Assembly (NCBI GenBank): GCA_000611775.1
Contig: KK106981.1
Span: forward strand, 6,160,312 to 6,224,311
Direction of reading: 5' to 3'
Length of the DNA: 64,000 nt
Origin: Umbilicaria muhlenbergii
Taxonomy: Eukaryota; Ascomycota; Lecanoromycetes; Umbilicariales; Umbilicariaceae
Under the pieces are notes generated by a model, which had not been told where the DNA came from, searched no databases, and saw only the letters and a list, made by a program, of their open reading frames with translations. Below are positions 31,072-35,600 of this stretch, piece after piece. The stretch's first letter is position 1; every line of letters begins with the position of its first letter. A program made the position numbers and the translations under genes.

Positions 31072-31344
31072 ATGGAGCATCACAAAGGCGGTCGATTCAT
31101 TCTCCCCACCGCTCCGTCCCCTCCGATGTCATTCCGCCGCTATCGATCAGGCCTAGAAAGCACAGGATTTGACCGCAGCGGTGGTCTTTCTTCCGGGGGT
31201 CACCGTGTGCCCTCAAACCTAAGGCAGGCGCTTCCCCGTCGCAGTTCTTTCAGTGCTGGTCGGAGAACAACTCCAGCGTGGGATGTAAAATCTGGTGAAG
31301 GGGAGAACCGTCGAACCCATTTCACTATCAACCTTGGTTCAGCA

Positions 31345-31521
31345 TGTTGAATTTAGGCGCTGTCGGCTTACGGCAGTCGCTTATCGGGGTTGATATCGGT
31401 GTTGGATGGTAGGCAGGGTTTAGGGTTTTCAGGGTTCAGGCAGGCACGGCGGGGCCTTATAGTTAGCTGGTTCCCACATTGTTCTTGGCTAGTTAGTCAG
31501 TCCTTATCGATATTTACAACA
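31345..31521. repeat. Left LTR of the TRIM
   Basis: 177 bp, TGTTG...CAACA termini, same sequence by eye as the right LTR. The following bases form the primer-binding site. Confidence 0.9.
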
Positions 31522-31654
31522 GGTTATGAGCCCGGTCAGCGCAAGGCGCTGCGGATTGACTCCGTCCATGCTGAGAGGACGTTAAAGACTATGCAAACAA
31601 GCCCTCTACGGAGGCAGTAACGGAAGCCAGCCCACAGAGGTGGCGTTTCAGTCA

Positions 31655-32243
31655 CGGAAGCCCACAAAGGTGGCCATTCCACTTCAGAAGCCCTCCACGC
31701 AGAGGCATTACAGGCCTACAAGGCACTTATCGGAAGCCCACATAGGTGGCCATTCCACTTCAGAAGCCCTCCACGCAGAGGCATTACAGGCCTACAAGGC
31801 ACTTATCGGAAGCCCACATAGGTGGCCATTCCACTTCAGAAGCCCTCCACGCAGAGGCATTACAGGCCTACAAGGCACTTATCGGAAGCCCACATAGGTG
31901 GCCATTCCACTTCAGAAGCCCTCCACGCAGAGGCATTACAGGCCTACAAGGCACTTATCGGAAGCCCACATAGGTGGCCATTCCACTTCAGAAGCCCTCC
32001 ACGCAGAGGCATTACAGGCCTACAAGGCACTTATCGGAAGCCCACATAGGTGGCCATTCCACTTCAGAAGCCCTCCACGCAGAGGCATTACAGGCCTACA
32101 AGGCACTTATCGGAAGCCCACATAGGTGGCCATTCCACTTCAGAAGCCCTCCACGCAGAGGCATTACAGGCCTACAAGGCACTTATCGGAAGCCCACATA
32201 GGTGGCCATTCCACTTCAGAAGCCCTCCACGCAGAGGCATTAC
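31655..32243 (+). repeat. 76-bp tandem array inside the TRIM, about 7.75 copies
   Basis: Units start CGGAAGCCCACA at 31655, 31731, 31807, 31883, 31959, 32035, 32111 and 32187, exactly 76 bp apart; the last is cut at about 32243. The copies look nearly identical; the first differs slightly (CACAAAGG rather than CACATAGG). A decayed partial unit precedes the array at about 31620-31654. Since 76 is not a multiple of 3, each frame reads through three units before the same TAG; these open frames are artefacts of the repeat, not proteins. Confidence 0.95.
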
Positions 32244-32430
32244 TTTGTAAGACGCATTGTGGATGCGCATTTTTGGTCTTTTGTGAGTCGTGTTTTGAAC
32301 ACGCAGTTTAGGGAATTATCTGTGGGCTTTTTGGGTCGAGATATGAGCTTTTTGGGAGGTTAGAAATTGGAGGATTTTCGGGAAGTTTTGGGAAGTTGAG
32401 GGAGCAGAGGGAGCCTCCAGCGAGAGGGAG

Positions 32431-32607
32431 TGTTGAATTTAGGCGCTGTCGGCTTACGGCAGTCGCTTATCGGGGTTGATATCGGTGTTGGATGGTAGGC
32501 AGGGTTTAGGGTTTTCAGGGTTCAGGCAGGCACGGCGGGGCCTTATAGTTAGCTGGTTCCCACATTGTTCTTGGCTAGTTAGTCAGTCCTTATCGATATT
32601 TACAACA
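32431..32607. repeat. Right LTR of the TRIM
   Basis: 177 bp, apparently identical to the left LTR, preceded by a purine-rich tract. Confidence 0.9.
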
Positions 32608-35600
32608 CAGCACGCCAGAAAATCGTCGACGAGGAACAGGGCCCGCAACCGTACTTCGGCCTTCGCGAAAAACCTGTGCAGACAGAGACCGATGACGTGC
32701 GCGCAACTCAAAGAGCCAATGTGAAAGACATCCACATAAGACGTTCTAGAAGAGCTATTGCTGAGGATGATGGAGACAACCCTATTATACTAACGACTAG
32801 CCCAAGTGAAGCGGAGGACGATGGTAAATATCAATCTGCCTATGCTCATTGGAGGTTTGTTCCGCCGCCTTATGCCTATTTGCAAATCACTGCATGCTCA
32901 ATTTGATGCAGACACATGAAAGGCGATGAGTTCAGCTTTGACGGGTTCAAGGCCAGCTCCCTTTGTAACACCACTGTCTACTCAGCTAATCTCGCAGCAG
33001 ATTCTGGCTCTTCAGACACCTGGCTTGGATGGTGATGACATAACTCTTATCTCCCGCGTACTAGACAAGTGGGGTTCTCAAAACGAGAAAAAAGGGGTAG
33101 ATGGCTGCTTTTTGCAGGCCGGTGCCGTTCATTACGACGGCTTTGACCTCTCCCGTCAGAGCGGTGGCAACAAGTCTGCCACCTTCTTCTGCCTGCCTTA
33201 TTTTTCTATCGATACGCCCACTCACATAGATCGTCAAAGAGCAAACGATAAGTCTCTGCATCCTGTCCGGACGCTGCTACAATGGCGATATCACTCAATT
33301 CCATTCAGAGATCGAGACAATCAGACAACGAAGCCGTGCAAAGGAGGGGTTTTGCGTGTACCCCAAATATGGGGTCTTATTGTTAATTCTAGTATGTTTT
33401 TGGTCTTGCAGACGCTTCAGTAACTTGAGCTGACAAGGTGTACTTGTGTGTTAGAACACATCATTACTGCAGCACCATTTCATCTTGCTAATCTTCAAGG
33501 GACGGCTCTTAGGATGGAAGCGGATAGTCACCATGCAGGATCTCCTTTGATACAATTCATCAGTATTGATGGAATCTCTCACTATTTTCCGGATGAACAG
33601 TGTATGACATGGTTTGTAAGTTCTGTCGTTGTTCACTCAACTCTTGATCCACATACACTCTTATTCTGCGACTGCAGCAGGATGTCTCTAGAGTTTTTAT
33701 CTCAGCAGTACAGCGCTGATGTTCAACGCTCTTCTAGGAGATGATGGAGAAAGTTCAATCCACATTTGACAGACCCATAGACCTCACAAATTTCAACTTC
33801 TTTGCTGAAGTTACGTGGCCCACAGACGAGGTCGACTTAATCACTAGCTGGTCAGCAGTTATGGCTTCAGAGGATCGATTGCATGTCGTTTTACAGATGA
33901 AGAGCAAAGAATGGGAAGGAGATCAACGAAATATACGTACAAGGGACCGGAAAAACCACTACCTGCGTGAGCGGCCTTACCCAACATTAGGCTCTATACA
34001 ACACTTTGGACGACGATCATCTAGGCCGTTACCTGTGCGTGTGCTTCAGCCCGACCGACTGAGTACTAAACAAAGCGGGCGAACCGAAACTAGTGTTATA
34101 GTGTACGATGACTCATTAGAGTTGTCAGACACGTTTTCGTCTCCCTCACCCGGCAGATCCTCTGAAAGTGGGAACTCAGACTTCGGTTCCGAAAATGAAG
34201 GGAGAAAGCCCTCAGATGTGATGAGTTATCCGCTGAATCAATCACTTCTAGAAAAGCAACATAGTAATCAGTACATGGAAGCTCAACTTGCTCTAGTCCC
34301 TTTCGATGTACATCAGGATCTTCCGAGGCACGAGGATACTGCGGCGTTCTCTGAGGAGCCGCTCAGACTGACCGAGCGGACTTTTCGCGAATCACAAATC
34401 ACAGTAATTCCGGAGGCTTCAAGCGCTTACAAAGCATTCTTCAACGGCGAGAAGCTAGCCAGTCCTGGGTCATACAGACCAAGATATTTGATGAAAAATC
34501 GCGTTCGATCAGAACATGCTTCTGATCGAGGATGCTCTGGATCGAAATTCTTCGAAGAAAGTAGACTCGTTCATAGAGACGGCAATCCCCCTCAGAATCA
34601 TAGACGACGAGACCTCCGTCTGATTTCCAGGACCATGAGGCATAAATCGGAGGACAACGTATTTGATAGAAAGAGGTATACTTATCAAAGCCAACGATAC
34701 ATAGAAGACGCGGAAGATCATAGTATATACTATATTCCAAGCAGATCTCCGACTCCCTCTCATACTGAGTCAGCTACCTCACGATCAGTGTCCATCAGAT
34801 CAACACCTGGTACCCATGGCAAGACAAAGAGGGCAGAAATTGCCGAGGCAGCTGCCGGAGGCACAGAGAAAGCGACGAGGACCTATCAAGACAACGCAGA
34901 TGTTGATGTGCTAGAGACTCCATTCACAAGTCAAGAAATCGAAGTCCCGCCAGTTTTTACATGGCCCACTGAATCACGTAACTTCCCGTGGGAACCCAGC
35001 CTTTGGATGAATCGCGATGAAGTTTTGGAAAACATTGTGAATGAACTAAGCAGAAGTCTTTCTAGGAGTACGCACGAGCGAGCAGCTTATCTATCTATTG
35101 CTGCATGTACACAGCAAGATGCAGAAGTTTTCACTCATTCAACTCACAATACCAGCAAGTTATTGAAGAGCAAGCAAAGATTTATGGAGAGGGCAAATCG
35201 CCTCTCAAATTTCTTTCTTCCCACATATTATGCGTCCAGCATTACCGGCAAATACTGGGGTTCAATGCTATCTCTGCTTATTGTATGTATACCCTCCGCA
35301 ACCTAGGTTCTCTAACATTGATTGTGCATTTAGTTGAGTGATGAAGCGTGGGGCGTTGAGCTAATCAAACAATGCTCTCGGCAACTAAAAAACCTCCTAG
35401 AGGTCGCAGAAGAAATACGAAACGGAGTAAGGGGCAGCATTAGTTTGCAAGCCTCACCCTATCGCATTCCGGCGGCGCTGGTCAAGGCCTACCGGAGTAT
35501 TGTGATGTTACTCATCACCGCCGTAACTCATCTACGAAAGCTCGCCACCACATCTTTGCCAAAGCTTTCGCTGAAGTGGCCCATACAGGAATACAAAGAA

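Follow-up and report, generated by a model that had tools for sequence, protein, structure and literature searches.

The closest described counterparts of the element reported here are the Helenus TRIMs of rusts and Agaricomycetes, presented in the cited part of that work as non-coding elements with 5-bp target duplications and a Copia element as likely helper (Kojima 2024, PMC10886601), and as mostly primed at a tRNA anticodon arm, the initiator tRNA (iMet) being the commonest (PMC10886601). TRIMs are also reported in the ascomycete Venturia (PMC4646964), and their usual length limit is put at 1000 bp (PMC6934838). As for the primer, Ty5 is described as using an initiator tRNA cut by RNase P (PMC5371799), and nucleotide 40 is given as the primer position for this priming group (PMC1181622).

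We analysed a stretch of 64,000 nucleotides from Umbilicaria muhlenbergii (hereafter the window) and searched the genome to which it belongs (34.79 Mb, 7 contigs). The window contains an element that we take, with a probability of about 0.92, to be a TRIM, a non-autonomous LTR retrotransposon mobilised in trans by half-tRNA-primed Copia elements. Judged from sequence, this reading is based on the LTRs, the target duplications, the primer complementarity, the copy family, the Copia elements with the same primer site and the sister copies with a Copia-type LTR, one of which has two different LTRs.

Structure and insertion site of the focal element

The earlier note, made from the letters of the window, had described two seemingly identical LTRs, a CAGCA target duplication and a primer site directly after LTR 1. 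All three are borne out: the LTRs agree at 177 of 177 positions (31345-31521 against 32431-32607), CAGCA stands on both sides, and GGTTATGAGCCCGGT begins at 31522, adjoining the end of LTR 1 (Table 1). The element was also rightly called non-coding, its longest stop-free stretch being 103 codons; it combines short LTRs and a target duplication with a primer site, a polypurine candidate and no genes. Sister copies have purine-rich ends likewise just before the 3' LTR. A young insertion, as proposed, is supported by the sequence. What had escaped the earlier note is the 76-bp tandem array at 31655-32243, because of which the focal copy, at 1263 bp, exceeds the usual 1000-bp limit; the 15 copies with duplications range from 534 to 1420 bp. 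Two units of the array fold better than shuffled sequences (z -2.18, 3 of 200 shuffles as good), and the folding of the leader (z 0.57) and of the tail (z -0.67) is no better than that of shuffles.

Table 1. Features of the focal element, of the frame around it and of three tRNA genes; positions are those of the window unless a contig is named.
Feature	Position	Strand	Basis or remark
Interrupted open frame, left piece, 91 codons	31072..31344	+	Frame analysis
Target site duplication CAGCA, left copy	31340..31344	+	Sequence
5' LTR, 177 bp, TGTTG...CAACA, type A	31345..31521	+	Sequence; genome matches
Primer binding site	31522..31536	+	Exact complement of nt 26-39 of the host initiator tRNA (14 nt), followed by one G:U
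Leader, common to sister copies with other LTR types	31537..31654	+	Leader comparison
Tandem array, 76-bp unit, 7.8 copies, 99% match	31655..32243	+	Repeat search and folding
Internal-domain 3' tail, without notable coding frame	32244..32419	+	Sequence comparison, frames
Polypurine tract candidate GCGAGAGGGAG	32420..32430	+	Sequence; directly before LTR 2
3' LTR, 177 bp, identical to 5' LTR	32431..32607	+	LTR alignment
Target site duplication CAGCA, right copy	32608..32612	+	Sequence
Interrupted open frame, right piece	32613..32906	+	In phase with left piece across empty site
Initiator-tRNA gene, two introns	C4:1007223-1007401 (L077:1469-1647)	minus	Pattern search, excision, ARAGORN
L214, Thr(UGU)-like tRNA gene	C4:2856416-2856550 (within C4:2856410-2856555)		52-nt GTGAGT...CTAAT...CAG after nt 24
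L219, tRNA-Ser(AGA) after excision	C4:110250-110430	minus	53-nt GTGAGT...CTAAT...CAG after nt 14

The element interrupts a predicted open frame (31072-32906), which is in phase on both sides of the reconstructed empty site; the second codon of the element is a stop in that frame. Neither piece of the frame has a Pfam match.

A small non-coding fungal element with 5-bp duplications, an iMet anticodon-arm site and a Copia with the same site could be a TRIM of the Helenus type, which in rust fungi carries a tRNA-like Pol III promoter within the LTR. However, a comparison of 31300-32650 with the Rfam families, that of tRNA among them, gave no match at E values up to 1, and ARAGORN finds no tRNA in the window. 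The LTR has no tRNA-like stretch, and we rejected membership in Helenus, a reading that we hold to be extremely improbable.

A copy family with several LTR types and its probable Copia partners

A genome search with the 177-bp LTR, in which 40 of 50 candidates were scored, gave at least 42 matches. The element belongs to a multi-copy family, with copies elsewhere that carry their own duplications, and is not the single copy without relatives whose finding would have counted against the earlier proposal. Around the primer site, 29 loci were examined for a pair of LTRs, further partial pairings within L004 and L008 being left out of the count. A pair was found at 16 of them, in 15 cases with a perfect 5-bp target duplication. 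Fourteen of these are the focal copy (L001), L002, L004, L008, L011, L016, L023, L032, L079, L080, L081, L083, L084 and L085; the fifteenth, L033, represents a separate small family whose LTRs run TGTTG...TATTA. At the sixteenth locus, L005, there is a partial pair in a nested cluster, without a duplication. The two LTRs of a pair are 82-100% identical, with 100% reached in the focal copy, L011, L023 and L084. At the remaining loci, which include L007 and several loci with Copia-type leaders, there was no second LTR within the searched stretch. Five further loci with type-A LTRs comprise four solo LTRs, each within a 5-bp duplication (TGCTC, TCCTG, CCTAT and CTCTG), as the earlier note had suggested looking for, and one 3' LTR of an element (L043).

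L033 itself lies within a CCAGG duplication and has LTRs 99.5% identical, the same primer site and an unrelated leader; the ends of L017, L022 and L030 resemble its own. A scan of viral contigs for related sequences by exact 20-mers found nothing; a 19-mer of the tRNA exon, present in at least 120 stretches of these contigs, was not used.

These copies also bear on whether the two LTRs might be an assembly duplication of an LTR-like repeat. The LTRs and the array units are indeed nearly identical, but the target duplication, the primer site and the polypurine stretch are all correctly placed, and identical solo LTRs with their own duplications occur elsewhere. Separate target duplications around the copies at other loci make this explanation very unlikely.

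The leader of the TRIM matches across copies with several LTR types: the 177-bp type A, a 165-bp relative 78% identical to it, a type C of about 110-115 bp and a 260-bp type B. Type B is also the LTR of copies of Copia that bear a reverse transcriptase (RT), for example L051, L054, L055 and L070. At L005 the TRIM leader is joined to a 260-bp type B LTR that is 85-89% identical to the LTRs of RT-bearing Copia. In L007 (on C3; positions 1242-2122 of the locus) a type B LTR (1247-1506) is followed by the TRIM internal domain and a 115-bp type C LTR (2003-2117), and CCATA lies directly outside both unlike LTRs, as one 5-bp target duplication. Ordinary reverse transcription yields two copies of one LTR. 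The best explanation for the L007 hybrid, drawn from its letters, is that a particle contained two RNAs and that template switching took place between them; alternatively, one LTR may have been replaced by recombination after insertion. Under template switching, L007 would be a frozen hybrid that hints at mixing with Copia-type RNA. Taken together, the leader matches show, as far as sequence can, that one non-coding internal domain has moved between several LTR types.

As to the helper, RVT_2 has 55 matches in the genome, many of them a few kb behind such a primer site, and 53 of the 55 hold stops. One C3 locus has an open Copia frame of 1505 codons around the RT, in which Pfam, run on two pieces, finds Pol_BBD and gag_pre-integrase in one, and an SH3-like domain and RVT_2 in the other. 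The LTR of this Copia differs from type A and ends in TTGCTTCAACA; just before it are a 19-bp match and a type-B LTR, an arrangement suggesting that the 5' LTR was interrupted by a type-B element. The earlier note had asked whether an autonomous Copia carries the same LTR ends and primer site: there are Copia elements with the same primer site, but comparison by eye of the LTR and RVT_2 match lists revealed no RT-bearing Copia with the type-A 177-bp LTR, and among the loci scanned for this LTR those of the open Copia frame gave no match. One TRIM-leader match (C3:2960562) is about 1.3 kb from an RVT_2 match. TRIM and Copia leaders have their first 18-22 nt in common and nothing further, and the predicted link between the two runs via the sister copies with a Copia-type LTR.

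Gag traces raise a different origin, namely that the element is a decayed deletion derivative of one Copia with type-A LTRs and not an established TRIM lineage. A CX2CX4HX4C knuckle (recognised by eye; the fragment has no Pfam match) is encoded in L023 and L008, both of type A, and in L093, with an LTR that shares 76% identity with type A across 87 bp, a 267-codon frame matches Retrotran_gag_2 (1e-24); A-type LTRs would therefore once have gone with gag. However, the same non-coding internal domain recurs under several LTR types in many insertions that arose independently, each with a duplication of its own, which points to a propagated element and not to one decayed copy. We consider such a derivative very improbable; an origin by deletion would not conflict with subsequent propagation as a TRIM. 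L093, with its primer site at position 3941396 of C3, has no RVT_2 match nearby and is possibly a gag-only element.

The Copia copies are themselves decayed, and in the RT stretches L048-L067 the stops are mostly TGA. Classical RIP is not supported, the C-to-T decay favouring CpG and CpC over CpA. Between L051 and 11 relatives at 90-94% identity (five at 78-83% were left out), the changes affect 9-12 of 34 CpG, 12-29 of 67-68 CpC, 3-14 of 100-101 CpA and 4-12 of 92-93 CpT sites.

For the TRIM moved by Copia, the proposed course of events is as follows. The TRIM RNA would enter Copia particles; the host initiator tRNA would be cut after nt 39, and its 5' fragment, paired to the site that follows LTR 1, would serve as primer for minus-strand DNA; the reverse transcriptase and integrase of Copia would then complete the copy and integrate it, creating a 5-bp duplication. 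Packaging, tRNA cleavage, template switching and present activity are what we infer here from the sequences described.

Predicted half-tRNA priming and an apparently split initiator tRNA gene

The 12-mer GGGCTCATAACC of the primer site occurs 61 times in the genome, against once for a reversed-pattern control, and one of the 61 is the initiator tRNA gene itself. All 32 readable distinct contexts other than this gene follow an LTR-like end (CAACA in 22, CAATA in 4, TATTA in 4 and TAACA in 2). Exact complementarity to the host tRNA extends over 14 nt in 28 of the 32, 15 in 1, 13 in 1 and 12 in 2; with G:U allowed it extends over 15 in 24, 16 in 1, 14 in 4, 13 in 1 and 12 in 2. The site is complementary to the initiator-tRNA anticodon arm of the same strain, with a predicted primer end at nt 39, which we take to be the position used by copia. 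The half-tRNA priming put forward in the earlier note is supported by this: the strain's tRNA does contain the complement, 14 nt exact and one G:U, so the objection that it might lack one falls away.

The gene that encodes this tRNA appears, from its sequence features, to be split by two spliceosomal-type GT-AG introns, and it is the only recognisable initiator gene. In gene order, exons of 11, 11 and 50 nt are separated by segments of 55 nt (GTAAGT...CAG) and 52 nt (GTGAGT...CAG). The joined exons form a 72-nt tRNA-Met in which all stems are paired (ARAGORN). Among eight excision variants, four gave a tRNA-Met, every one with two excisions: the 72-nt form came from two of them, and the other two, which use an AG lying 4 nt beyond, gave 68 nt. 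On the unspliced locus ARAGORN found no tRNA, and its Rfam score (24 bits) was below the cut-off of 29. Intron 2 contains a perfect ACTAAC as branch-point-like site; those of intron 1 are imperfect (CTCAC or ACTAAA). The joined tRNA has an A1:U72 pair and three G:C pairs in the anticodon stem, presumably initiator features. It also has A54, given as an initiator feature in the part of the work cited (PMC3978253). A T6 starts 7 nt past the end of the gene. Intron 1 sits within the Pol III A box; because its donor GTAAGT leaves 10 of the 11 letters of what we take to be the A-box consensus, Pol III may still be able to read the gene.

The C4 locus might instead be a dead copy, or tRNA-like pieces brought together by chance, with the true initiator gene unrecognised or unassembled. 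The search for another initiator gene was by patterns only, of 1258 candidates for the tRNA family 63 were scored (at least 19 matches), and the genome-wide pattern for a GT-AG intron before the B box gave 8 matches against 7 for the reversed-pattern control, that is, chance level. On the other side, removal of the two segments yields a perfect 72-nt cloverleaf; GGGCTCATAACCC, which distinguishes the tRNA from the primer site, occurs once in the genome (C4:1007255-1007267); and no intronless form was found within 3 mismatches of a 33-nt pattern, nor any second copy of the locus, in the genome. A D-arm pattern had four one-mismatch matches against six in its control, and three of the four, inspected by eye, showed no tRNA. 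The primer sites of the elements fit the tRNA of the split gene, though they pair with its third exon only and therefore provide no test of splicing. A dead or chance locus is in our view unlikely.

The same kind of intron was present in two more tRNA genes. Ordinary tRNA introns lie in the anticodon loop, and five of the 19 matches of the family search, the three longest included, were read: in L215-L218 (four of the five) the insertion is confined to that loop. L214 combines its GT-AG segment (Table 1) with an 11-nt anticodon-loop intron that must also be removed for the mature form; ARAGORN calls it Gln(ttg) unspliced and Ala(tgc) after excision, Thr(UGU) being our reading. Of the eight matches to the GT-AG pattern we read three, L219, L220 and L221. 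L219 has a T6 at its end and is called Ala(tgc) with a 50-nt intron when unspliced. L221 gave no tRNA. Initiator intron 2, L214 and L219 have in common a CTAA(C/T) branch-like site. Altogether, GT-AG introns are present in three of the eight tRNA loci read (four introns), four loci are without and L220 stands apart; the eight were picked by length or pattern, and three of eight is thus no frequency. L220 (C7:1198482-1198655, minus strand) is a type II tRNA gene with GTAAGT...CTAAC...CAG beside the anticodon stem; ARAGORN reads it as Ser(act) after excision, and it was left out of the intron count with its anticodon ambiguous. A single-excision scan of the window and L001-L093 gave a tRNA from 0 of 495 variants (control, 0 of 872), and missed the initiator gene because this requires two excisions.

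A chance origin of the tRNA introns is unlikely because excision leads exactly to the initiator cloverleaf, donors and acceptors follow the consensus, and there are further such genes. The initiator tRNA is presumably produced by spliceosomal splicing. More generally, it seems probable from these sequences that nuclear tRNA genes, including the only recognisable initiator gene, carry spliceosomal introns outside the anticodon loop that are removed by the spliceosome, in which case translation initiation and Copia/TRIM priming would both hang on mRNA-type splicing.

Comparison with known systems

Taken alone, the TRIM is a new family of a known kind, and it is not Helenus. The novelty suggested in the earlier note thus holds for the family but not for the kind, iMet-arm-primed fungal TRIMs having been published (PMC10886601). 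As far as the cited part of that work describes them, Helenus elements are likewise non-coding, with two LTRs, priming mostly at a tRNA anticodon arm (iMet the commonest), 5-bp duplications and a likely Copia helper, and they have a tRNA-like stretch in the LTR (PMC10886601). The focal element has no such stretch; here there is instead a 76-bp array, and several LTR types flank a single internal domain. The TRIMs of plants and Venturia are similarly described as having LTRs of 100-250 bp, a primer site and a polypurine tract without genes (PMC6934838, PMC4646964); unlike these classical TRIMs, the present family has a half-tRNA primer, a tandem array and LTR exchange, and its focal copy exceeds 1000 bp. 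Drosophila copia and yeast Ty5 are also reported to use an initiator tRNA cut in the anticodon arm, with the site adjoining the LTR (PMC5371799, PMC1181622), but they are autonomous and the focal element has no genes. With the present TRIM, the half-tRNA-primed fungal TRIMs gain a family from outside the rusts. There is presumably also a likeness to TR-GAG elements, in the gag between short LTRs of L093 and the remnants in L023 and L008; the focal copy has no gag.

For the apparently split primer gene, parallels are more distant. The U6 snRNA genes of fission yeast and other fungi are Pol III-type genes with mRNA-type introns, and are not tRNA genes; we know of no mRNA-type intron in textbook tRNA genes, and searches of the open PubMed Central literature found none describing spliceosomal introns within nuclear tRNA genes. 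If our reading is true, it becomes directly testable whether the spliceosome can act on tRNA transcripts, and tRNA finders overlook an essential gene. Cyanidioschyzon and the Guillardia nucleomorph have ectopic tRNA introns that likewise lie outside position 37/38, but in the part of that work cited they are of the endonuclease type or unclear, whereas those described here have GT-AG ends and branch-point-like sites (PMC3978253). What would go beyond the known kind is the exchange of LTRs and, most of all, the apparent splitting of the primer gene.
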